Positions 256 through 11,612 of a stretch of 27,228 nt of DNA are shown here, in pieces (the first letter of the stretch is position 1; every line of letters starts with the position of its first letter). A program made the translations under genes and the position numbers. Source of the DNA: a virus; IMG/VR virus record IMGVR_UViG_3300005663_000956, positions 1-27,228 of that record; one strand, 5' to 3'. The notes below the pieces were generated by a model. That model was not told the origin of the DNA, searched no databases, and was given only the letters and a program-made list of their open reading frames with translations.

Positions 256-1137
256 TTAGGCAGGAGCGGTTGCATCGGCAAAGAGTTCCACAATCCAGCC
301 TGGGAGATACTCACCGACACCATAGCGCCCCACATAGTTTAGCTCCCAGCCTCTCAAAGAGGCATCCCGCTCAGGCTCCACGCTTGGCTCCCGGGCACTG
401 ACATAAATCAGCCCGCCGCGTTTGCCCGAAGCGAACACACCACCCTTTGCAGCCACGGCCGTAAGCGCCATGTTGCCATCCGCTATCACGGGTATATCGA
501 ACACCCGCCCAACGGAATACCGGCGCAGCACCTCATCGGCGATTCCACCCGCAACCCCACCGACTACGCTGGACACGCTGGGCACTAAGGGGGTAAGGAT
601 GTCCACGATGTCCAATTCCTGGTAGGGGTGGATAACACAGGCATAGGGTGTCGGCGCTGGCCCACCGGCAGTCGTTGCATTCCCCATAAGGGTAGCTCTG
701 GCTGCGGCGATATGCCCCAGGGTAAGGGCGTTGGCAGAAGCAGCCAGGGAGGTGGTAGCATCGTCAAGCTGCCCCAATAGGTCTTGGTCACGCTTCTTCT
801 CAAACCCATCACCCAGCAGGACTCCCGCTGCCCGTTTCAGGTCTTCGTTGTCGTCCTCAAGGACATTGTCGGTGAGGATTATCTTCAGACCCACCTCGTA
901 GGGCACAATCTGGACATTGGTATCCTGCATGGTCTGGCTGGCAGTCATGTCCACGGCCTCAGTTAACTGGCTAGCCGTAGCCTCATTGAAATATGGCACA
1001 TTGACATTCGTGCCTTTGCCCTTGCGGATGTTCCAGGCTAAGGCCCGCATGATGGCCTTGTGTTGGGCCGTGAACATCGCCTCCTCGATAACCGTAGGGA
1101 TGGTATCCCCAAGTTCTGCTAAAGTTGTAACTCCCAC
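256..1137 (-). CDS. Major capsid protein, HK97-fold type
   Basis: This is the probable coat protein, 293 residues, forming the icosahedral shell. It starts at a GTG (1137) preceded by AAGGAGGAGATAA. The early part (MGVTTLAELGDTIPTVIEEAM) resembles the N-arm of HK97-type coats that open with a target-to-membrane-like helix. It is followed by the usual mix of beta-rich segments (VQIVPYEVGLKIILTDN) and a helical stretch about residues 95-120, the expected E-loop/spine-helix pattern. The C-terminal half has HPYQELDIVDILTPL, typical of P-domain and A-domain strands. It lies 14 bases after the scaffold-like gene, the usual scaffold-capsid order. No protease gene lies beside it, which fits assembly with a separate scaffold rather than a cleaved delta domain. 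The family is assigned by pattern and position, not by a database search. Confidence 0.85.
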   Translation of the reverse strand: MGVTTLAELGDTIPTVIEEAMFTAQHKAIMRALAWNIRKGKGTNVNVPYFNEATASQLTEAVDMTASQTMQDTNVQIVPYEVGLKIILTDNVLEDDNEDLKRAAGVLLGDGFEKKRDQDLLGQLDDATTSLAASANALTLGHIAAARATLMGNATTAGGPAPTPYACVIHPYQELDIVDILTPLVPSVSSVVGGVAGGIADEVLRRYSVGRVFDIPVIADGNMALTAVAAKGGVFASGKRGGLIYVSAREPSVEPERDASLRGWELNYVGRYGVGEYLPGWIVELFADATAPA

Positions 1138-1151
1138 TTATCTCCTCCTTG

Positions 1152-1886
1152 TCAAATCCCCCGTGCTCTCCGTGCTTCTACATAAGCGGCGTAAGCGCCC
1201 GGGTCATTCGGGTTTTTCATCCATGCATCCCTGATTCCTTCGTAGCTTGATGCTCCACCTCCCGTAGATGGCGTTGTGTCCCTTTGGCCTTGCTCTGCTT
1301 TACGCTCCGCATCGGCCTGCTTCGCCTTTGCCTCTTTATCGGCTGTGGTTTGCTTGTCTGTCCTCATCTTCGCCAGTCCCGCTTTCCACACCTTAACCGC
1401 ACCATCTGGCTTGTCAGAGTAGTAGAGGTTGGCTAACTCGTCTATTACTCCACTCAACTCCACAGGGGGGTTGGCGTAGTCCACGCCATACTCATCAGCC
1501 AGGGTTTGCAGCCTGATGGTCGTGTCACGCTGTGCTTGTGTTACCTGCTGAGTGGGTTGGGGGCTATCGGCCTTATCCCCGGCAGCCAGTTCCCTTTGCC
1601 AACGCTGATACTCAGTCTCTACGGGTTCATCTTCTTCTCCGAAGGTTCGGCGGGCTAAGGGCTGAATGGCCCTTTTTAAGGTATCAATCTCTTTTGCCAG
1701 CCTCGCATTGCCCCTATCCTTATCGGCTACTTCTTTGGTGTATTTGCCCTCTAAAGCAGTCAACTGAGTCTTTAACTCCTCTACGGTAGGGCCTGTTGGC
1801 GTCAGGACTTCGGGCTGTAAGTCGCCCTCTGGTTCCGCCTCTCCCGTTACCTGCTGATTCGTATCGACTTCAGCTTGTTCTACCAA
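1152..1886 (-). CDS. Scaffold-like capsid assembly protein
   Basis: The 244-residue protein is acidic at the N-terminus (EQAEVDTNQQ, EAEPEGDLQPE) and has a coiled-coil-like helix at about residues 33-70 (LKTQLTALEGKYTKEVADKD). A long helical, Lys/Glu/Gln-rich C-terminal half ends in a basic tail, EARRARGI. Low-complexity charged helices with a basic tail immediately upstream of the coat gene are the hallmark of scaffolding proteins, which template procapsid assembly and bind the coat through that tail. The start is a TTG at 1886. The nearby ATG at 1891 is out of frame and stops after three codons, while the SD at 1892-1898 sits five bases before the TTG. A 12-bp hairpin (1913-1954) lies just upstream in the mRNA, so translation may be controlled. 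Confidence 0.75.
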   Translation of the reverse strand: MVEQAEVDTNQQVTGEAEPEGDLQPEVLTPTGPTVEELKTQLTALEGKYTKEVADKDRGNARLAKEIDTLKRAIQPLARRTFGEEDEPVETEYQRWQRELAAGDKADSPQPTQQVTQAQRDTTIRLQTLADEYGVDYANPPVELSGVIDELANLYYSDKPDGAVKVWKAGLAKMRTDKQTTADKEAKAKQADAERKAEQGQRDTTPSTGGGASSYEGIRDAWMKNPNDPGAYAAYVEARRARGI

Positions 1887-1891
1887 AACAT

Positions 1892-1898
1892 CCTCCTT
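1892..1898 (-). promoter_or_regulatory. Shine-Dalgarno site that selects a TTG start
   Basis: On the minus strand this reads AAGGAGG. Five bases downstream is the in-frame TTG of the scaffold-like gene (1886). An ATG begins at 1891, immediately after the SD, but it is too close and opens only ATG-TTT-TGG-TAG. The site is flanked by TTTGC and GCAAA (1909-1913 and 1896-1900 in plus coordinates), which could form a small hairpin beside the SD. Confidence 0.7.
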
Positions 1899-1912
1899 TG
1901 CTTGAAATGCAA

Positions 1913-1954
1913 AGAGGCCAGTTTAAGGGTGCTTAACCTCAAAAACTGGCCTCT
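1913..1954 (-). promoter_or_regulatory. 12-bp perfect hairpin between the com-like and scaffold genes
   Basis: The arms 1913-1924 and 1943-1954 are perfect inverted repeats (AGAGGCCAGTTT on the plus strand) with an 18-base loop. In the minus-strand mRNA the hairpin lies after the Com-like stop codon and 15 bases before the scaffold SD. The following bases (TTTGCATTT) are only a weak U-run. It could be a leaky intrinsic terminator or attenuator, an mRNA processing site, or a binding site for an RNA-binding protein. Nothing here decides between these. Confidence 0.65.
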
Positions 1955-1975
1955 GGGGGCGCTAATATTTAGTTG

Positions 1976-2164
1976 TTAAAACGAAGCGGTTCTTGCCGTC
2001 TGTATCTCCTGTAACTGTCCACAGTGTTTGCACTTCAGGGTGATTCGCCCATCGAGCTTCTCACCGATAATGCTATTACACTGGCAACACCGAACCGTCT
2101 CTAGTTCCTGATGTAGGTAACTTATGGTTACATTAGAAAGTTGTCTTAACATAAGTCTTACCAT
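1976..2164 (-). CDS. Com-like zinc-ribbon protein
   Basis: This 62-residue protein carries two CxxC knuckles (C26-C29 within VRCCQCN, C45-C48 within KCKHC) 15 residues apart. Spacing and surrounding residues (ETVRC..CNSIIGE, ITLKC..CGQ) match the zinc-ribbon of phage Mu Com and its relatives. Mu Com is an RNA-binding protein that opens a stem-loop to allow translation of mom, a DNA-modification gene. The start at 2164 has GGAG eight bases upstream; an internal ATG five codons in is also possible. It lies 15 bases after the B12-type radical SAM gene and just before the hairpin and scaffold gene. Family membership rests on the Cys pattern and flanking residues. What this protein regulates here, if anything, is not known. 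Confidence 0.7.
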   Translation of the reverse strand: MVRLMLRQLSNVTISYLHQELETVRCCQCNSIIGEKLDGRITLKCKHCGQLQEIQTARTASF

Positions 2165-2179
2165 AGACTGCTCCGTTTG

Positions 2180-3466
2180 TCAAGTTTTAAGTATTTTAAG
2201 AGCGGCTCTTATCTGTTCTACTGTGAGTGTATTGCCCCCGCTAGAAGTTCCAGCAAGAGCATAAAATCTCTCTATTGTCTGCCACTTCAACATCCCTTTT
2301 ATATGCTCTACAGCCCCGTCCCCAAACTTTCGCCCAATCTTCTTTAGATATTCTGGCCGTGAGAAGTATTGCTTAAATGCCTCCCGCCTGAAATCAATGG
2401 CCTTCCTGCTGCCATACATATTGGGATTAAACTGCCCAAACCTCTCCCATTTAGTGGGTTTGCGTTTCAAACTATACCACCATGGAGAGCCAGGGTAGGG
2501 TAGGGCTATACTCAGGTTCAACCATTCAAAGTTCCGCTTCATGGCGTAGTCGAGGCTCGCCTGCATATCCCCCAACTTCTCCCCAGGCAGGCCAAACATA
2601 AAGTTTGCTATGATGCTAAGGCCCGATTCCTGAGTCACCTGGACAGCCCAATCGGATTGTTTGAACTTCTTATCGCCGGTGCTTTCAAACCCGTAGGCTA
2701 TCCACCTGATGCCAGCTCTCCACATCCTGGATAGCATCACGGGATCAACGGAATCTAATCTGCCATAAGCCCACATATTGAAGTCGTAGCCCTGGCTGAT
2801 TATGTAATCGCATATCTCCCTCACCCTCTGGGTGTTCAGGGTGAAACACTCATCCCATATCTTGATATTCCTGATGCCCTTGGCTGCGAAGTAATCCAGC
2901 TCCTGTTTCACCTTTTCCATAGGGCGGTAACGCACCGTATGGCCGCCGTAGAGGGCGTGTATGTTGCAGTAGTGGCAGCTAAAAGGACAATTCAGGGAAG
3001 TGTAGAGGACTGCGTATGGGCTGCGCCTATCCAGGTCGTCAAGGCAATGCCAGTTGTGGGCGCGGTATTTGGAGAGGTCGAACATCTCCCAGGGAACGGA
3101 AGGTGTGCCCTTGAGTTCTCCCCAGTCCCTCGGATGTTTCATGGCCATCGGGTGAAGCCCTGCTACCATAGCTGTAGGCAACCGCTTCAGCAACCTTCCG
3201 GCCACTGGCCACTTCGGGGTTGACGATACGGAAGGGTTATTGCCCATCACAACCAGGAGTATGTCTTTGGTATTATATTCCTCCACTCGCTTCACCGTCT
3301 GCTCTATGGTCAAGTTTTCTGCCTCGGCATCCAGGATTCTAAGGTCTGGGTCGCCCCTGCCGACATAGTTCCCTGCTATCAGCCCTAGCCACAGCGGGGG
3401 TTCTACCGCAGCGAAGGGGACTTGAAGCCGCCCATTGGGATTCACTAGCACGAGGTCAGTGGTCAT
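2180..3466 (-). CDS. Radical SAM enzyme with N-terminal B12-binding-like domain
   Basis: The 428-residue protein has the two-part build of cobalamin-dependent radical SAM enzymes. Residues 1 to about 130 form a Rossmann-like domain (LVLVNPN, PPLWLGLIAGNY, DLRILDAEAENL) typical of the B12-binding module, though no DxHxxG cobalamin-ligand motif is visible. The radical SAM barrel carries the cluster motif C160-x3-C164-x2-C167 in SLNCPFSCHYCNIH, then IWDECFTLN. These enzymes cleave S-adenosylmethionine to start radical chemistry, often methylating unreactive carbons or rearranging cofactors. The C-terminal third is unassigned. Its ATG overlaps the nucleotidyltransferase stop by four bases (ATGA), implying coupled translation. 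Reaction and substrate cannot be read from sequence. Confidence 0.88.
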   Translation of the reverse strand: MTTDLVLVNPNGRLQVPFAAVEPPLWLGLIAGNYVGRGDPDLRILDAEAENLTIEQTVKRVEEYNTKDILLVVMGNNPSVSSTPKWPVAGRLLKRLPTAMVAGLHPMAMKHPRDWGELKGTPSVPWEMFDLSKYRAHNWHCLDDLDRRSPYAVLYTSLNCPFSCHYCNIHALYGGHTVRYRPMEKVKQELDYFAAKGIRNIKIWDECFTLNTQRVREICDYIISQGYDFNMWAYGRLDSVDPVMLSRMWRAGIRWIAYGFESTGDKKFKQSDWAVQVTQESGLSIIANFMFGLPGEKLGDMQASLDYAMKRNFEWLNLSIALPYPGSPWWYSLKRKPTKWERFGQFNPNMYGSRKAIDFRREAFKQYFSRPEYLKKIGRKFGDGAVEHIKGMLKWQTIERFYALAGTSSGGNTLTVEQIRAALKILKT

Positions 3467-3891
3467 ACCACCATCCTTGCTCCATGCCGGTCATGTTCCA
3501 ATACGGCATGGCGTATCTCAATCCCCAGTTCATCACATACCTGCCGTTCCTCTGGGGGCATATCCTCTATCGTCTTATCACCACCCCTAAAGAATACAGC
3601 AGGCTTTAACACTCGTAAAGCCTCGGCCACCAGCGTTGTTTCTTTATCCCACTGGTTCACCACCACCACATTCAATACCCGCATACCCTCCAGGATAAGC
3701 CTCACAATGTTACTTCTCCCTCGCTGGGGGATATTCACATTCCCCTTCTTCATCATGAGTTGGGCATCACTGGAGACTACGCAGAGTATTGCATCTCCAT
3801 GCGCTATCGCCTGTTTCAGATAGCTAAGGTGTCCGTCATGCAGCGGGTCGAAGTGACCACTTACCATGACGATTACGGGAAACTTAGGCAT
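3463..3891 (-). CDS. Nucleotidyltransferase, HldE C-terminal/RfaE2 type
   Basis: The 142-residue protein is a single cytidylyltransferase-fold domain. The nucleotide-binding motif GHFDPLHDGH (residues 12-21) is the GxFDxxHxGH signature, and FRGGDKTIEDM near residue 100 parallels the KGGD segment of heptose-1-phosphate adenylyltransferases (HldE C-terminal domain, RfaE2). Family members join NTP and a sugar-phosphate or alcohol-phosphate to give an activated NDP product. I chose the ATG at 3891 because GGAGG lies seven bases upstream; a start further upstream would bury it in the preceding gene. It overlaps the SPASM-like radical SAM gene by 19 bases and the next radical SAM gene by four. The substrate is unknown; an activated sugar is the best guess from the family. 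Confidence 0.85.
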   Translation of the reverse strand: MPKFPVIVMVSGHFDPLHDGHLSYLKQAIAHGDAILCVVSSDAQLMMKKGNVNIPQRGRSNIVRLILEGMRVLNVVVVNQWDKETTLVAEALRVLKPAVFFRGGDKTIEDMPPEERQVCDELGIEIRHAVLEHDRHGARMVV

Positions 3892-4985
3892 AACCTGTCC
3901 TCCATGACCACCTCCGATATTTGGCGATGATATTCCCCGAATGTGCAACGAGAGCACCCATTGATGTCCGCGCTCTGCATCATATCCCGGTGGGCATCGC
4001 TGCCCCACCATTCCAGGATTTGCTTAGGATTGGGGTATGCAGAGCCGAGCCTGTATTTGGCCTCCATTTTATGGTCAACACACAAGTAGCCATTGCCATC
4101 AGTCAATATGGGCAGCAGCAATGGCGTTGCCATGCATTTCTTGAATCGGTGGGCTACATGGAAGTTCTCGTCAAACTTGTGGGTAGTAGTATAGACTTTG
4201 AAGTCTGAGGTCTCCTCCTCGTGGCATCTCTCAAACTGCTCCTTCACGGCCTCCACATCTATCGGCAACTTCCTGTGCCCCTCGATATCACAACGCTCAA
4301 AGTCCACGGGCCTGACACGGAACACCTGGGCACCCGATTCCTTCGCCACCTTGCATTGCTCATGGAGGGAATACAGGTTCTCCGGCAGCACCAGGGAGCA
4401 CCAGGTCAGCATGACTTCGTAGATGTCCTGACGGAAGTTTGCCAGCTTCTTTATATTGGCCACTACCTGGTCAAACTTGTCCCTACCCTTGACCCTCTCG
4501 TATGTTTCCCTATCGCCAGCATCTACGGAGATGGTTATCCATTGGCACTTCATAACCTCATGCATCAGCCTATCGCTGATATTGACGGCGTTGGTGAACA
4601 GGCTTACTTTCATGCCCCTGCCATCGGCGTGATTGAGAATCTCTGGCGTGGCCTCATGTAAGCTCGCCTCACCCCCACCTGAAACGCATAAGCCCTTCAC
4701 ACCCCAATCAGCCAGGAAGTCAACCAGCCGGTGCATATACCCAGCGGGGAGCTTCCGCATCTCCCCCACCTCTGCCCGATGGTGTTTCAGATACCGTTGG
4801 GTAATGCAGAAGTAGCACGATATGTTACACTCGGCGTAGGGGTCGAGGTTGACCTCGATAGGTGGGGGTAGGGGATTCTTGTCGTCAAGCCAGCCTACAA
4901 TCTTCTTGTAATGCTCATAGTAAGCTAACCCCTTGAAGCTGTTGAAACTGTTATACTTGTTCTCAGGAAGCCATTCAGTGGCCAT
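3873..4985 (-). CDS. Radical SAM enzyme with SPASM-like C-terminus
   Basis: The 370-residue protein has the radical SAM cluster motif C53-x3-C57-x2-C60 (AECNISCYFCITQ) and the SAM-binding VSGGGEASLH at 102-110. It also has SLFTN and ITISVDAG strands typical of the partial TIM barrel. The C-terminal region has C284, C302, C344 and C347 (the last two as GCSRC), a layout resembling SPASM or twitch domains that hold extra iron-sulfur clusters. Relatives act on peptides, sugars and cofactors. The ATG at 4985 is preceded by GGAGATGGGGGAAT and overlaps the E1 beta-like stop by 11 bases. It sits second among the core enzymes of the cassette. The substrate is not known. Confidence 0.9.
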   Translation of the reverse strand: MATEWLPENKYNSFNSFKGLAYYEHYKKIVGWLDDKNPLPPPIEVNLDPYAECNISCYFCITQRYLKHHRAEVGEMRKLPAGYMHRLVDFLADWGVKGLCVSGGGEASLHEATPEILNHADGRGMKVSLFTNAVNISDRLMHEVMKCQWITISVDAGDRETYERVKGRDKFDQVVANIKKLANFRQDIYEVMLTWCSLVLPENLYSLHEQCKVAKESGAQVFRVRPVDFERCDIEGHRKLPIDVEAVKEQFERCHEEETSDFKVYTTTHKFDENFHVAHRFKKCMATPLLLPILTDGNGYLCVDHKMEAKYRLGSAYPNPKQILEWWGSDAHRDMMQSADINGCSRCTFGEYHRQISEVVMEDRLCLSFP

Positions 4986-5502
4986 ATTCCCCCATCTCCT
5001 CTACGACTACATAGCTTCCAGGATAGCAATACACATCATCATAGGTTGCCATCACTCGCTCTGTATTGGTAATTCGGACAATCCCTACATTCTTTAGCAT
5101 TGCCCTTAATCCTCTCGTATAGTCCCCGCAATGCTGGACACCAGGATTAAGTGGCTCTGTAGAGCCTACGCCCACCCTGATAATGACCTTCGCCTTATAC
5201 TGGCCGTGGGTGAACTCCTCCAACTTGTCCAGGTGGTTGACCAGTTGGTTCATAGCACACATCAGGAAGTCCATGCGGGGGAAGATGGAGATAACCACCT
5301 TGCCCGTTAAGGCCATGCCTATACTTGCCCCTAACTGGAAGTCCTCTGCTACCGGGAACTCGATACGCTGCTCCATCGGCACGCCTTCCAGAGTGGCGAA
5401 CATGGCGTTGCCAGGATACCGCACCTGCTGGCCGATGAATATGGTATCGGGTTGCTGGCCCAGCCAGGTCATGGCATTCTTGATTTCGCTAAAATATGAC
5501 AT
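4975..5502 (-). CDS. Minimal thiamine-diphosphate E1 beta/transketolase Pyr-domain subunit
   Basis: The 175-residue protein corresponds to the pyrimidine-binding (Pyr) domain of E1 beta subunits and transketolases. RIEFPVAEDFQLGASIGMAL matches the family pattern in which the Glu of P[IV]AE (here E53) activates the thiamine ring. It is followed by ISIFPRMDFLMCAMNQLVNHLDKL, a good match to the E1 beta core helix. Typical E1 beta proteins have about 330 residues; this one lacks the C-terminal transketolase_C domain and ends EEMGEYGH. The ATG at 5502 overlaps the alpha-like gene by 14 bases. With that gene it should form a complete TPP active site at the subunit interface. Acceptor and donor substrates are unknown. 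Confidence 0.82.
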   Translation of the reverse strand: MSYFSEIKNAMTWLGQQPDTIFIGQQVRYPGNAMFATLEGVPMEQRIEFPVAEDFQLGASIGMALTGKVVISIFPRMDFLMCAMNQLVNHLDKLEEFTHGQYKAKVIIRVGVGSTEPLNPGVQHCGDYTRGLRAMLKNVGIVRITNTERVMATYDDVYCYPGSYVVVEEMGEYGH

Positions 5503-6061
5503 TCTTCCCCGTGCTCTGGTGAGGCCAGGTTGGGTTATACTGATAATACTCATCTTCATCAACCACTGAAGGGACGCTCCCCCATACTTCCCTTGTAGGC
5601 GTCTGGACTGATAGCCCGTTATCTTCAACTACAAACTTAATCGGCAGGCCATGCCCTCTAGCATATTTCAAGCACTCATTGAATACCCCCGTCTCTGCCG
5701 CCATGTCTCCCACAAAGCACCATACCCTCTGTCCCGTCATAGCAACCCCTACAGCGATAGGTAATATGCCGCCCACGATAGCTGAGGTGAAGAAGTGATA
5801 TTCGGCATTGTTGAGGGTGATGCTGTGCCCTGCGATTATCTCTGCCTTTAGCCACTCCCTAGGGATGCCCTTCAAGAGGGCATGGTGGTGGCTGCGGTGG
5901 GTGCTGAATACCCAGTCGTCTGGCTTCACCTGCTGGAATATGCGGATAAGGGCATCTTCGTTGCCCCCTGACAGGTGGACCGGCGCTTTTATCTTGCCCA
6001 CCTCAAACAGTTCTGCTATTTCTGCTTCAAAGTCTATCAGGTCTTGTTTGGTTGTAGTCAT
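5489..6061 (-). CDS. Minimal thiamine-diphosphate E1 alpha/transketolase PP-domain subunit
   Basis: The 190-residue protein matches the diphosphate-binding (PP) domain of E1 alpha subunits. WVFSTHRSHHHALLKG resembles the YRxHGHxLAKG segment, then SAIVGGILPIAVGVAM and the cofactor motif GDM...(about 25 residues)...VVEDN, equivalent to GDG-x(24-27)-NN. The third residue of the GDG motif is Met, which is unusual. Full-length E1 alpha has about 320-360 residues, so this is a reduced version. The start at 6061 is chosen because the previous gene ends in a four-base ATGA overlap; an upstream ATG at 6091 lacks an SD. It probably pairs with the following beta-like subunit to make or transfer a two-carbon or ketol unit. 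Confidence 0.82.
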   Translation of the reverse strand: MTTTKQDLIDFEAEIAELFEVGKIKAPVHLSGGNEDALIRIFQQVKPDDWVFSTHRSHHHALLKGIPREWLKAEIIAGHSITLNNAEYHFFTSAIVGGILPIAVGVAMTGQRVWCFVGDMAAETGVFNECLKYARGHGLPIKFVVEDNGLSVQTPTREVWGSVPSVVDEDEYYQYNPTWPHQSTGKNVIF

Positions 6062-6426
6062 GTGGTATGGCAACCCCCTCCCCCTGGCCATGAAGCGTTA
6101 TAAGAACGAACACCTTTAAAAGGGATACTCTCTCCTTTTCCTGAATCCATCCAACAAGATTCATCTTTAACCTTTCCATCATGCGTCAATCCGCACCGTG
6201 AGCACTTTTTAACCGAATAAGTATAATGATGCCATATGCTAAAATACCCTTGCCGATAGAAATGTCTAGATTCCAGATACTCCCAAAACCTTCTATGAAT
6301 AATCACACAATTCAGCCACTTAGTGATGGTATGGGGAAGAATCATCACCCATGTAATGGGCTTGAGGATTTTAAGTATTACCCTGCCCCAAAGAAACCAA
6401 TCGCTCTTGGTTTCTTCTTTGATCAA
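6058..6426 (-). CDS. Membrane-associated protein with CxxC, first gene of the cassette
   Basis: The 122-residue protein starts at TTG (6426), coupled by a TTGA overlap to the stop of the polyvalent protein. Residues about 12-45 are hydrophobic and aromatic (FLWGRVILKILKPITWVMIL) and could insert in a membrane. A KKCSRCGL zinc-type knuckle near residue 75 and further Cys at about 91 and 119 follow. The tail is glycine-rich (PGGGGCHTT). I do not recognise a family. It ends in an ATGA overlap with the E1 alpha-like gene, so it is probably made together with the cassette enzymes. Confidence 0.65.
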   Translation of the reverse strand: MIKEETKSDWFLWGRVILKILKPITWVMILPHTITKWLNCVIIHRRFWEYLESRHFYRQGYFSIWHHYTYSVKKCSRCGLTHDGKVKDESCWMDSGKGESIPFKGVRSYNASWPGGGGCHTT

Positions 6427-9400
6427 CGGCCACCCGCTACAGCCAGTTCCCTTGCCCTCTGTATCTGCTGCCTTCTGTTTACGGGGCTGACGGGGTTCTT
6501 ATAATAGCCCCACTCCACCAGCAGTCGGTCAACCTCGGCATCTCGCATTCGGATAAGTTTGCGGTTTTGCTGCATCCTCTTGACATAAGGCCCCAGCCTA
6601 TATTGGGTTGCAAGCCTCTTGGCAGTTATTGTGTCTCCATCGTTCTCGGCTATAGTCACCTGATTCAGCCAATATTCAAAGTTTATGCCAGTCTGCTTCG
6701 CCAACTTATCCCGTAAAGCCTGGTCGGGATCCCAGTAACGCTCCTCAATTACCCTCTTATCAAGACGAAACTGCCGTGCCTTCGGCGTGTCGTTGGCCCC
6801 GATTTCGTTCTCAATATACTTTACCTGAGCTGGCGTGAGCTTGCTCATATAATCTTCCAAGAATCTGTCCACTTTGGCTGAGTCAAAGCTCTCAGGGGTC
6901 ATCTTCCCTGTGGCTTCATCCAGCCTGTCATAGTAGCCAAAAAGGGCTTTCTCATTCTCATTCTTGGGCTTCCTCTTGGGGAACTCCCCGAACCACCGCT
7001 GGTATGCCTCAGACTCAATCATGGCTTCACGTTGTATCCCGTAGTGGGCATCCCTCCATTGCTTCTTTGAAAATGGCCGTGGGTTGCCGTTATCATCCAG
7101 CATGGGCGAGCCATCGGGATTGACCATCTGCCCTGCATCCACCCATCGGTCAATACCCAGGTGGCGGTCAAAGCGGTCTTGGCGTGCTTCTCTACCTATC
7201 TGCCCTTGTGTTTGTCCAGCAGCGGCAAAGAAACTCCTGGCTTCTGGCAATAGTTCAAGCTGACGTCTTTCGGGTCGTGTCAACCCATCCCAAGTCCCAT
7301 CCCACGGTTCTTTGCCCTCAGCCAACCGCTTCTCATTTATACCCTCTTTTTCCCCCAATCTCACAATAAAGTCACGGGTTCTCTCGGCCCTCAGATTGAC
7401 TCCTGTAGCCTGCACAGCCAAGCCCATCAACCCCAAGCGGGTTTCTTCTGGCGGTATAGCCTCTTCTGCCCCAGGAATAAGTTGCCTGGCAGCCTCAGTA
7501 GCTATGCCCCCTATACCGATAGGGGCAAACAGGTCTCGTGCCAACTGTGCCGTCCTGGATACCACACCCCCAGGTCCGACCTTATCAATGGGCAGGTCAA
7601 AGAAGTTAGTGCCGTTTTTCTGGTTAAGTATCGCCCTTAAAGGCACGCTTTCCCTAGACTCCACGAAGTTCTGGGGGTTAAGCACTCTCAGGGCCGTGTC
7701 CATCTGTCCCGCCAAATCCAGCGTCACCTCTGCCCCTTCTTTGCCCTTAATCGGTATGGTGGGGGCAGCAAAGCGGGTATTGTAACTAAATGGCAACGGC
7801 CCCCAATTATCCTTAGCTATGGGAATAAACCGCTCTGCTGGCAGATGTTCACCTGTTGACGCATAGTGGATAACCTCAGCAGTCGAGACAAGGAATAGGT
7901 ATGTTCCTATCCAATGTCTGCGCCAGTATGCCGCCTGTGGCCCCTTGATAGCCCCTGCCGCCTGTCGCAGCAAACCCTCCGATTCGTTGACTGAGAAGAA
8001 TACCCGCCGCAAGGTCTCACGCAGGACACGGTTCTGTATGACGCTCTGGGAAGCGGGTATCGTGGAGTATTTTACATTGGCTATCTTGGCTATCATACCA
8101 TTCAGTTGGGCATCGTTGAGGCGGGGATAGAGTCTGGCTGCCACAGGTGCAATATTGCGTTGTATATCTGTGATAATGGCAGCCCGATAGACACCCTCAA
8201 AAAGCCCTCGGCGCATAGCCAGTTCTGCTTCTTTGACAGCCCCAAACGCCTTCTTAATTGCTCCTGTATCCTTAGCCATTTGCAGGATTTCATCACCCGC
8301 AGCAGCACCTTTAAACATAGTTACATCTGTGGTAGACAGGCCAGCTTTGCTTATGCCGTTCAAATTCACCCCTGGCCGTCCCTGGATAAGTGGCTCGGTG
8401 CTGTCAAGTTGCTTCGCCAGGTTCAATCGGGTAGTAGGACTAAAGTTGGACTTGAGGATTTGCCCTGCGCTTTTGGGGTAAAGGGCTAGAGCCTTCACCG
8501 CTTGTAACGGCTTCCCTGCCTGAAGGGAGTCGACCATCATAGACCAGGCTCCCGCACCACTACGGTTAAGGAAGTCCATCTGCTGAAAGAACGAGCCAAA
8601 TAGCTTTGCCCGTTTCGGCACAAAGGTCAGCCAGTCTATAATCGCCAATGGATCAAAGGACTTTCCGCCGATACCTATTCTGCCCAGATTGGGGCGTTTG
8701 CCATGCATATTCTCCAGCATGTTGGCCACTGAATCAGTGGTTATCCACCGCCTGGTAAACATGGACTGGGGATTGCCCTGAGCGTCTAAAGTAGAAAAAG
8801 GTTTGCCTTCAAAGGCAGGGCCAACCTCCGGCACTCGCCAACCGGCAGGGATAGGCCCACCTTCGTGGGGCTTTATCAGGTCATCCCCCATACCCTTCAG
8901 GTGTTCCACCAACTCCATCTGCTCCCTGTATTTGACTCCCTGCATACGAGAGATAGCCCACTGCTGATAGGGGTTAAAGGACAGTGGTTCAAACCCCAGA
9001 TCTCTCATTTCCTGATATGTAGCGTCAACACGAGGTTTCTTGAAGGCGGGGGTTCTGACCAACGGCCTACCTTGAGTCACCCCAGTAGGAAACATGTCTT
9101 TAGGAGGTTTCCAACCTCGATAGAAGTAATCCGCTACCGTAGCCATCTCTGGGTCAAAGTCCAACCTCGCTACCGTCTCCCAATCGGTAAGTTCCCGTAG
9201 TTCCTTGTAAATGTCATCCATGCCCTGTGGTATTTTAACTTCGCCAGAAGCCACCTTGCTAGGGTTATGCAGGGCATTATAGAGTTCATCTAGTTTCGGT
9301 ATATCCTGCTCTCTGGCAACTGTCTGGCCCTGCTTTGTAGTCCCTATCCCCGTTGCCTTCAGTTTATCCCCACCTGTTCGGACAGTGATATTGACTACCC

Positions 9401-11612
9401 TTTGGGCATCACTAATTGCACCCTCATGGAGTCTTAGAAGGGTCTGGTCAGGGCGTTCTTTCCCTACGGCCTTTTCAGAGATTTCGTGGAGTATATCAGA
9501 AGGCTCTTTGGCGGGTTGGGTTGGTTTTGCCCCCACTCTGGGGGGCTTACGGGGTGGTTGACCACCCGCATCAGGTGCAGCCGTTTCAACATGGGCAACC
9601 TTAGCCTCTGCCGGTGCTACACTGGTAGGTTGCTCTACGGCCTTCTGCTGGACTGCCCGAACACGCTGAGTGGTCTGCTGCGGGGCTGTAACGGGTTGTG
9701 CCTTCGTAATCGCCGCAGGAGCCGCAACAGGGGGCTTGACCGCTTGGGCTGGGGGTATCGCTGCCGCCGCAGGGGGCAGGGCTTCTGTCCCTAGCGGGGC
9801 AACTATGTCCTCTGTAATTGACTTCTGTTTGACAATACTTATGTTGTCAGTGTCAAACACTATGAACTGTCGTTGTTTGCCTAAAAGTTCACCCGAATCC
9901 GCCATTGTCCTCACTACTATACCGTCATACCCCATACCCTTCAGGGTTTCAGGAGCAGAGGTAAAACGGGTTCGCAGACCTTCCTGCTTAAAACTTTGCC
10001 ATTTAGAGAACAACTCGGACGACCTATCTTTCCACATCTGCTGAATTACTGCATCGTCGGTCACGCCATGGGCTTTTGCAAACGAGGAGAAGTTTCCGGG
10101 GTTGTATCCCTTCGGTTTCTGCTTGGCCAAGAACTGCACAACTGAGAACTTATCCTCGGACTCGTTGAACACCTTAGCAAAGCCAGGAAAAGCCGTATCC
10201 AGTTTGGCAACTACATCGGGTGAAAGAGTATCAAGGTTGAGAGGGTTTCGCAAGTTCAAGCGGGCCGTGTATAAGGTAGGATTGCGGCTCTTAGAAAAGG
10301 CGCCAAATTTAGAGAATCCGAAAGCAGCCACAGTCGCTATATCTGGATTTTCAGTGAAAAAGGTTCCGAGCCTGGCCGTAGAAGCGCCAGTGCTCCCAGC
10401 TAAGTCCTCAGGACTGGTTAAAAACTGCTTGATGTCTGCCGTGCCGCTCCCGTGGTAGACAACATCTGGCACAGCGGCAGGCCCAACCCCTACCGCTTCG
10501 GGGGCTGCCTGTTTAGGCCGAATGGCCTTTACTTTACCTAGAAATTCATCCCATAGGACTTGTTTTGCAGCCTTAGCTTGAGCGGTAGTTGCAAAATCTT
10601 CAGGGCTAAAAGTTCTTAGATTTTTATATTTCAGAAGGGATTCCCAAGCCGCAGTAGTATCTAACCCTTTTAACTCAAGTTTTTCAAACTCTTGGGCAAT
10701 AAGCTCGTGAGGCCCCCCTCTGACATTCCTAATCCTGTTTATCTTATCGTGAGCGTTCTGTAAAAGGGGCTTGATTTCAACTACTTCACGGCGTATGGCA
10801 GCTACTTCCCCCGCCCTTGCCACGCCCGCAGGGGGGACAGGCTCAACGCCCGCTCGGGGGACACGAATGCCGCCCATTTCCAAATCGGGAATTGCTTTAT
10901 ATTTCCCAGCTAGTGCCTTCCTGACCCCTTCCAAAACTTTTAAGTTTTCTTTACCCAGGCCAGCTAATTTCACTGGTAGTCTAGGCCAACCTATAGCCGG
11001 AAGAAGTATTAGAGGGTCAAAAAACTCCTCGCTAATATCCCTCTCCCATTCAGGCACGGCTTCCCTATATGCTGGCACAAGGGACTCAAGGTCGCCTTTT
11101 CGTAGCGCCTCCCTGATGTCAATACCTTCTTTCAAAGACCATGCCACAGCCGTCAAAGGTTCAAGGATATTGGCCTTTCGCCACGCAAATCCCTTTTGAA
11201 ACCCCGCCTCTGCCTTTTTCAATGCTGGCTTGTAGGGGATTACATCTTCAATGGGCTTTTGTAGAAATTCCCCGGCAGTTTCAAATGGAGACGGCCTATC
11301 CAAGAAGCTCCTTACCGCTCCTGTGCCACGCTCCAAGAGTGAAGGCCCAGGCGTCACTTCCCCTTCCTCGAACTGCTCGCCTCTAGTGGCAAACGGGGCC
11401 ACGGGCTGTCTGCCCACTGTCGGCTGCTGCCCTCCCCTGAACGCTGCTATGCCCGTAGGGGTGAATGGCGGCTCCACAGGTGGCTGTGGTGGCTCTACAG
11501 GGGGTTCCCCACCTCCACCGCCATTCCCAGCATCCAGCATGGCCTTTAGCAGATTCAGCCGTTCTCGTTGCTTATGGCCGGGTGGAGCGAAACCCCAAAA
11601 CTTTACTGCCAA
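6423..11612 (-). CDS. Giant polyvalent virion protein with ADP-ribosyltransferase-like domain
   Basis: The 1729-residue protein lies between head genes and capsid genes. Residues 33-52 are Gly/Pro-rich (a repeat of EPPxPPVEPP type) and linker regions rich in Ala, Pro and Gln occur around 255-270 and 610-690. Residues about 385-596 resemble ART-PolyVal domains: VVYHGSG (H387), LGTFFTENPDIATVAAF, YTARLNLRNPLNL, then GYDGIVV and QFIVFDTDNISIVK. Such domains occur in large phage and plasmid proteins thought to travel with the DNA and modify host targets. The remaining 1000 residues are mostly helical with some hydrophobic stretches (HWIGTYLFLVSTAEVI) and lack a domain I can name. The start is a TTG at 11612, one base after the stop of the 31-residue peptide; the next ATG is residue 25. 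An ejected internal head protein is the most likely role. Confidence 0.8.
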   Translation of the reverse strand: MAVKFWGFAPPGHKQRERLNLLKAMLDAGNGGGGGEPPVEPPQPPVEPPFTPTGIAAFRGGQQPTVGRQPVAPFATRGEQFEEGEVTPGPSLLERGTGAVRSFLDRPSPFETAGEFLQKPIEDVIPYKPALKKAEAGFQKGFAWRKANILEPLTAVAWSLKEGIDIREALRKGDLESLVPAYREAVPEWERDISEEFFDPLILLPAIGWPRLPVKLAGLGKENLKVLEGVRKALAGKYKAIPDLEMGGIRVPRAGVEPVPPAGVARAGEVAAIRREVVEIKPLLQNAHDKINRIRNVRGGPHELIAQEFEKLELKGLDTTAAWESLLKYKNLRTFSPEDFATTAQAKAAKQVLWDEFLGKVKAIRPKQAAPEAVGVGPAAVPDVVYHGSGTADIKQFLTSPEDLAGSTGASTARLGTFFTENPDIATVAAFGFSKFGAFSKSRNPTLYTARLNLRNPLNLDTLSPDVVAKLDTAFPGFAKVFNESEDKFSVVQFLAKQKPKGYNPGNFSSFAKAHGVTDDAVIQQMWKDRSSELFSKWQSFKQEGLRTRFTSAPETLKGMGYDGIVVRTMADSGELLGKQRQFIVFDTDNISIVKQKSITEDIVAPLGTEALPPAAAAIPPAQAVKPPVAAPAAITKAQPVTAPQQTTQRVRAVQQKAVEQPTSVAPAEAKVAHVETAAPDAGGQPPRKPPRVGAKPTQPAKEPSDILHEISEKAVGKERPDQTLLRLHEGAISDAQRVVNITVRTGGDKLKATGIGTTKQGQTVAREQDIPKLDELYNALHNPSKVASGEVKIPQGMDDIYKELRELTDWETVARLDFDPEMATVADYFYRGWKPPKDMFPTGVTQGRPLVRTPAFKKPRVDATYQEMRDLGFEPLSFNPYQQWAISRMQGVKYREQMELVEHLKGMGDDLIKPHEGGPIPAGWRVPEVGPAFEGKPFSTLDAQGNPQSMFTRRWITTDSVANMLENMHGKRPNLGRIGIGGKSFDPLAIIDWLTFVPKRAKLFGSFFQQMDFLNRSGAGAWSMMVDSLQAGKPLQAVKALALYPKSAGQILKSNFSPTTRLNLAKQLDSTEPLIQGRPGVNLNGISKAGLSTTDVTMFKGAAAGDEILQMAKDTGAIKKAFGAVKEAELAMRRGLFEGVYRAAIITDIQRNIAPVAARLYPRLNDAQLNGMIAKIANVKYSTIPASQSVIQNRVLRETLRRVFFSVNESEGLLRQAAGAIKGPQAAYWRRHWIGTYLFLVSTAEVIHYASTGEHLPAERFIPIAKDNWGPLPFSYNTRFAAPTIPIKGKEGAEVTLDLAGQMDTALRVLNPQNFVESRESVPLRAILNQKNGTNFFDLPIDKVGPGGVVSRTAQLARDLFAPIGIGGIATEAARQLIPGAEEAIPPEETRLGLMGLAVQATGVNLRAERTRDFIVRLGEKEGINEKRLAEGKEPWDGTWDGLTRPERRQLELLPEARSFFAAAGQTQGQIGREARQDRFDRHLGIDRWVDAGQMVNPDGSPMLDDNGNPRPFSKKQWRDAHYGIQREAMIESEAYQRWFGEFPKRKPKNENEKALFGYYDRLDEATGKMTPESFDSAKVDRFLEDYMSKLTPAQVKYIENEIGANDTPKARQFRLDKRVIEERYWDPDQALRDKLAKQTGINFEYWLNQVTIAENDGDTITAKRLATQYRLGPYVKRMQQNRKLIRMRDAEVDRLLVEWGYYKNPVSPVNRRQQIQRARELAVAGGR

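Follow-up and report, generated by a model that had tools for sequence, protein, structure and literature searches.

The question raised by this locus is why a small phage should carry a run of enzyme genes in the midst of those for its virion, and what those enzymes would make. The window, the whole stretch of 27,228 nucleotides that was analysed, corresponds in reversed orientation, with two mismatches, to the first 27,228 bases of the 44.6-kb virus contig G001. A block of six minus-strand ORFs lies in it between virion genes, at the position and on the strand that had been predicted. A giant virion-region protein of 1729 aa (6423..11612, minus strand) precedes the cassette, and a scaffold-like protein (1152..1886, minus strand, assigned by position) and the major capsid protein (256..1137, minus strand), by which the lineage of the virus is defined, stand on the other side. 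The answer to which we give an even chance of being correct is that the cassette is a captured sugar-nucleotide pathway, predicted to combine addition of a two-carbon (C2) unit by an E1-like enzyme, radical SAM C-H chemistry, and transfer by a GT2 glycosyltransferase, most likely to a virion protein.

The first ORF of the block (6058..6426, minus strand) encodes 122 aa, overlaps the gene of the 1729-aa protein by 4 bases, and matched no family in Pfam or profile searches; its proposed identity as a membrane/zinc protein is unproven. When the starts of E1a, E1b, and the nucleotidyltransferase NT were placed at 6061, 5502, and 3891, as chosen from conservation and translational coupling, the successive overlaps came to 4, 4, 14, 11, 19, and 4 bases, which reproduces the range of 4 to 19 bases originally claimed. 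Throughout, the contigs are metagenomic and gene presence was judged from profile matches on mechanically called ORFs, such that the absence of a gene from a contig may stem from contig incompleteness.

Judged by sequence, E1a and E1b are the ThDP core domains of a PDH-E1-like enzyme, carried on separate chains. E1a (5489..6061, minus strand; 190 aa from its likely start), the ThDP-binding (PP) chain, matches E1_dh (1.7e-10) and the TIGR03182 model of PDH E1-alpha (1e-21), aligns to human PDH E1-alpha (1ni4_A, 3e-16), and carries the GD...N and R-x-H motifs, with G128, D129, N158, R66, and H68 invariant among 28 viral sequences. E1b (4975..5502, minus strand; 175 aa from its likely start), the pyrimidine-binding (PYR) chain, matches Transket_pyr (2.9e-4) and PHROG 34187 (2.8e-28) and aligns to 1ni4_B (3e-12) with the E and QH positions conserved; E52 and H123 are invariant in an alignment of 25 viral sequences, and we take the catalytic roles of the conserved Glu and the substrate-side His to be those known from PDH E1. 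Since E1b consists of the PYR domain only, with no transketolase C domain detected by Pfam, and no E2 or E3 gene was found in the cassette neighbourhood, an oxidative PDH role for the pair is unlikely.

The company kept by such pairs is of sugar-type genes. A scan with E1a confirmed 162 IMG/VR stretches, and E1b is present in 69 of the 75 viral loci in which E1a was called, where the usual neighbours are RmlC-like, SDR, and DegT genes. A second viral group clusters radical SAM, NT, PfkB kinase, GmhA-like SIS, E1a, and E1b genes, and in the one example tested its kinase and SIS genes were HldE- and GmhA-like by family models. The 53 cellular E1a/E1b loci have SDR, RmlC, GHMP kinase, and SIS genes for company. 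Production of sedoheptulose 7-phosphate for GmhA was considered as a general role of the pair and dropped, as an acetolactate-synthase (ALS)-type enzyme occupies the slot in G812 and L194. In diverse bacteria (L156, L158, L159, L161, L163, L165, L166, and L168) a fused E1a-E1b of about 400 aa, the type represented by PHROG 34187, precedes a PfkB/HldE-like kinase; L163, from a MAG titled Bifidobacterium breve, has NT, cupin, alcohol dehydrogenase, fused E1ab, and PfkB genes consecutively, which probably reflects a wrong name or a contaminant contig.

Two radical SAM enzymes accompany the pair. rSAM1 (3873..4985, minus strand) matches Radical_SAM (3.5e-16), and among ten sequences its CxxxCxxC motif and C284, C302, C344, and C347 are invariant and C366 is nearly so; on these auxiliary-cluster cysteines in its C-terminal part, together with homology, it is assigned to the twitch/SPASM-type enzymes. 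Its solved relatives include SkfB, the best PDB match, and BlsE and DesII; SkfB is a peptide maturase, and the other two act on sugars. rSAM2 (2180..3466, minus strand) likewise matches Radical_SAM (1.5e-10), with a CxxxCxxC motif invariant in the alignment. Its nearest solved relative is AprD4, a radical SAM sugar diol dehydratase, which is the best match both in sequence (1.5e-29) and in fold (1.1e-17), although identity in the structural alignment is only 18%. The structure model used (pLDDT 83.6), which replaced a three-sequence model discarded as too poor (pLDDT 57.6), shows a Rossmann-like N-terminal domain. rSAM2 had been described as B12-type, which holds by class only, as Pfam detects no B12 domain in it and AprD4 is its nearest relative. 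The window virus has a second radical SAM locus, encoding a PHROG 9298 protein (G001:37331-38350, or L100:17331-18350) on the opposite strand and away from the cassette, with a relative in G028.

The remaining enzyme, NT (3463..3891, minus strand; 142 aa from its likely start), is an HldE-C/RfaE2-like nucleotidyltransferase that matches CTP_transf_like (4.9e-11) and RfaE domain II (2.9e-16) and contains the HxGH signature as HDGH; its score against the RfaE2 family, 59.6 bits, is below the cut-off of 181.5. The activity of the window NT is uncertain, since the C-terminal S/T-S/T-x-I motif of its relatives is absent from it; apart from this motif, the key residues of the cassette enzymes are intact. 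The NT of the related locus L200 is 52% identical. An HddA-like kinase occurs in six relatives, with heptose-7-phosphate kinase as the best NCBIfam match in both of the two tested, and one relative also has a GmhA-like SIS gene. The predicted activation of a sugar phosphate fits the RfaE2-like NT here and the HddA-like kinase of the relatives.

Beyond rSAM2 lies a Com-like zinc ribbon (1976..2164, minus strand), and between it and the scaffold gene a strong hairpin (1890..1975, minus strand), with a z of -3.7 in the window and -4.0 in L200. The ribbon had been named com; its Pfam match to Com reaches 17.3 bits, under the curated cut-off of 22.9 bits, and a similar ribbon at the same place in L200 does not match Com, both of which argue against the name. 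Hairpins stand upstream of the scaffold gene in five relatives (L200, L229, G813, G028, and G002), most of them followed by a T-run in the manner of a terminator. In the window, the cassette is probably the last part of the packaging-gene transcript and not the start of the capsid transcript. It had been proposed that the cassette is translated with the virion genes, and its overlaps do place it in the late-strand series, but the hairpin upstream of the scaffold gene makes cotranscription with the capsid doubtful.

The co-occurrence of rSAM1 and rSAM2 in seven other viral contigs argues that the cassette is more than a chance assembly. Both enzymes and one GT2 family are found in all eight contigs of the set, namely, the window contig G001, G002, G028, G811, G812, G813, G810, and that of L229; the last five of these were reached through alignment searches, and G811, G812, G813, and G810 contain L200, L201, L218, and L198, respectively. 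The TPP slot is filled by E1a/E1b in four contigs, by a split transketolase in G813 and G810, and by an ALS-type enzyme in G812, these replacements being confirmed by Pfam, and thus 7/8 retain some TPP enzyme; in the available sequence of L229, rSAM1, rSAM2, and GT2 stand alone. L200, with a capsid 67% identical to that of the window, has the same gene order except that an HddA-like kinase lies between NT and rSAM2, so that NT and kinase are both present. G002 and G028 (capsids 61-63% identical) have the core of E1a, E1b, rSAM1, and rSAM2 in common with the window, but an HddA-like kinase and a cupin replace NT and the gene orders and places differ. The cassette does not adjoin the capsid in G002, G028, or G813. 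The cassette genes are not scattered, and a chimeric contig is unlikely because L200, from a different sample, shares the window's order; as a block, the predicted cassette recurs in content and, in L200, in order, whereas order and neighbours vary in the others. Compared with L200, the cassette genes have pN/pS values of 0.28-0.48, the capsid gene 0.27, and the scaffold gene 0.74, which can be read as a rough sign of constraint, the synonymous sites being saturated and dN/dS unusable.

The reach of the searches differed. When the entire cassette was used for a DNA search of phage sequences, nothing matched, and single-sequence viral scans with rSAM2 or the capsid returned the window virus only, whereas the rSAM2 alignment reached further; in scans of genomes, the rSAM1 alignment returned nothing and the E1a alignment succeeded. 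Among the contigs recovered, G028 (L110-L113; 66 kb) holds two capsid modules and two large virion-region proteins from related phages, either as tandem prophages or as a joined contig, and the ALS-type TPP gene at L201:3819-5511 is read as two ORFs of 176 and 390 aa that overlap, which may reflect a split gene, a frameshift, or an assembly error.

The GT2 gene of the window virus lies just beyond the window edge, outside the view on which the original prediction was made, and it points to glycan transfer. In the window virus, G002, G028, G811, G813, and L229, it comes after the genes of the capsid and a second virion protein; the family was assigned by Pfam in G002 (4e-11), with a weak match in L200 (0.003), and also occurs on short contigs with no visible cassette. 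A copy at G810:C1:45551-46312 contains one in-frame TGA. After GT2, several relatives (L093:1954-3540, V28_7, L218:1269-2855, and L236:4605-7000) carry a 528-aa B12-binding radical SAM protein with a zinc-ribbon-like C-terminal stretch, which is located elsewhere on the contig of L200 and is absent from the window virus.

Cellular relatives place the same core among surface-glycan genes. In the archaeal locus L122, rSAM1, E1a, E1b, and rSAM2 lie next to a polysaccharide flippase and glycosyltransferases; in archaeal L194, rSAM1 adjoins rSAM2 and is accompanied by an ALS-type TPP enzyme; and in L129 (Methanophagales), E1a-E1b-rSAM2 is joined to GmhA, GmhB, HddA, and HddC of the GDP-heptose pathway. 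Phage rSAM2 sequences form a single clade (98/96), sister to L126/L129 (100/99). This grouping and the gene content of L122, L129, and L194 suggest that the phage cassette was probably captured from cellular surface-glycan clusters, a direction that we infer with a tree that has no outgroup root. The persistence of gene content through changes of order and neighbours and through replacement of the TPP enzyme by unrelated classes, together with the archaeal core, supports the view that the cassette genes form one functional unit, as the prediction of a single pathway had held.

From the gene content, the conserved residues, the recurrence of the set, and the cellular glycan clusters, we infer a substrate, an order of steps, a product, and an acceptor. 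A sugar phosphate, most likely heptose-derived in view of the RfaE2-like NT, the HddA-like kinase, the SIS gene, and the L129 cluster, would be activated by NT, the kinase step being carried out by the HddA-like enzyme in relatives and necessarily supplied by the host in the window virus. The two-chain E1-like enzyme would then put a two-carbon unit on the sugar carbonyl, in the manner of Plm8/Plm9 in paulomycin biosynthesis, where E1-like pairs join a pyruvate-derived two-carbon chain to deoxysugars, similar mechanisms being reported for kosinostatin, yersiniose, and avilamycin (PMC4802897). The exchange of the TPP class for two others suggests C2 transfer as the common step, although the donors may differ. 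rSAM1 and rSAM2 may carry out additional reactions at C-H bonds, for example a deoxygenation or an epimerisation, and GT2 would move the finished sugar, most likely onto a virion protein, the acceptor of first choice because the cassette sits in the virion module. The product of this late-expressed pathway would be an NDP-activated modified sugar, probably heptose-derived and C2-branched or deoxygenated. Several observations tell against this reading: L229, with only rSAM1, rSAM2, and GT2 in the available sequence, indicates that the set need not include sugar synthesis; SkfB, to which rSAM1 is also matched, is a peptide maturase; the missing C-terminal motif puts the activity of the window NT in doubt; GT2 is also seen on short contigs with no visible cassette; the cassettes of G002, G028, and G813 make adjacency to the capsid weak evidence for a virion target; and no gene for the supply of an NDP-4-keto sugar, the type of C2 acceptor in paulomycin, is among those identified in the window virus.

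In the leading alternative, which we consider rather unlikely, the same sugar pathway would deliver its product to a host surface glycan, blocking superinfection or changing a receptor, a role that has been suggested for the LPS-type genes of cyanophages and pelagimyophages. The widespread viral clusters of E1a/E1b with RmlC-like, SDR, and DegT genes and the surface-glycan clusters of the cellular homologues are in keeping with it, as are SAR11 phages with rfaE, radical SAM cassettes, and glycosyltransferases, for which a change of the O-chain has been argued (PMC7029224). The window cassette, however, is in the packaging/capsid/tail region and not in a host-recognition island, and in most contigs GT2 comes behind the capsid gene and that of a second virion protein.

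Two other explanations were weighed. That the radical SAM enzymes mature a virion or other protein directly, with the sugar enzymes separate or secondary, would account for SkfB as the best solved relative of rSAM1 and for L229, where rSAM1, rSAM2, and GT2 are kept without TPP enzyme, kinase, or NT in the available sequence; it is improbable given the TPP enzyme in seven of the eight contigs, the glycan clusters of the cellular homologues, and the matches of rSAM2 to AprD4 and of rSAM1 to BlsE and DesII as well. In phage Mu, Com regulates Mom, and the Com-like zinc ribbon after rSAM2, with its counterpart in L200, recalls an arrangement in which the product would be placed on virion DNA as a hypermodified base under Com-like regulation. 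Phage glycosyltransferases can act on DNA (PMC12619734), but the Com match is under threshold, the ribbon in L200 has no Com match, and no base- or DNA-modifying enzyme was found among the window-virus proteins scanned, which are a part of its ORFs, and we regard this outcome as very improbable. The original prediction is partly supported: a single pathway and the activation of a sugar phosphate agree with the evidence, while support is weak for DNA modification and partial for joint expression.

Known systems share parts of this arrangement. The Plm8/Plm9 pairs are likewise PDH E1 alpha/beta-like pairs within a sugar gene cluster; the phage pair has no E2/E3 alongside, and differs from them in the short E1b, which lacks the transketolase C domain, and in the accompanying radical SAM enzymes and heptose-type activation. 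The GDP- and ADP-heptose pathways (GmhA, HddA or HldE, GmhB, and HddC) are represented in full in L129 and, in the phage lineage, by NT, kinase, and SIS parts, whereas the full pathway is in no virus of the lineage and has no counterpart of the TPP and radical SAM enzymes. Cyanophages and pelagimyophages also carry sugar-nucleotide genes of LPS type, among them rfaE and genes for radical SAM and transketolase-like enzymes, but those described are large and T4-like, with the genes often in the host-recognition region, whereas the window virus is a small phage that has its genes in the virion module, together with a constant pairing of rSAM1 and rSAM2 and a GT2 shared across the lineage. Virion glycans occur in mycobacteriophages, where, according to PMC11256854, which cites Freeman 2023, phage glycosyltransferases are linked to capsid glycans (Che8 and Rita); mycobacteriophage Maravista has its glycosyltransferase genes close to the 3' end of the genome, whereas the present GT2 lies near the capsid.

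The literature searched, which left most subscription journals and preprints outside its coverage, contained no description of this gene set. We tentatively propose, as a possibility somewhat short of probable, an undescribed phage system: a function-defined set, conserved in one lineage, whose radical SAM and interchangeable TPP enzymes would make a novel heptose-type sugar, C2-branched or deoxygenated, for attachment to the virion. If this holds, small phages bring a route of their own to a rare sugar, which may arise by TPP carboligation and radical reactions and is used late in infection. The set would then also provide a compact group of enzymes for the synthesis of unusual sugars, and a way into the question of how phages disguise or tune their particles. 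The exchange of three unrelated TPP enzymes in a single slot amounts to a natural experiment that indicates the chemistry of the step and makes it testable. As to the host, 18 of 400 Chloroflexota genomes have capsid homologues, but these, at about 42% identity, are too distant for a host to be claimed, and the stretches read of three genomes contain no cassette. The homologues (L195-L197) lie with tail-like genes, one per genome, as would be seen for a conserved prophage or a domesticated element.
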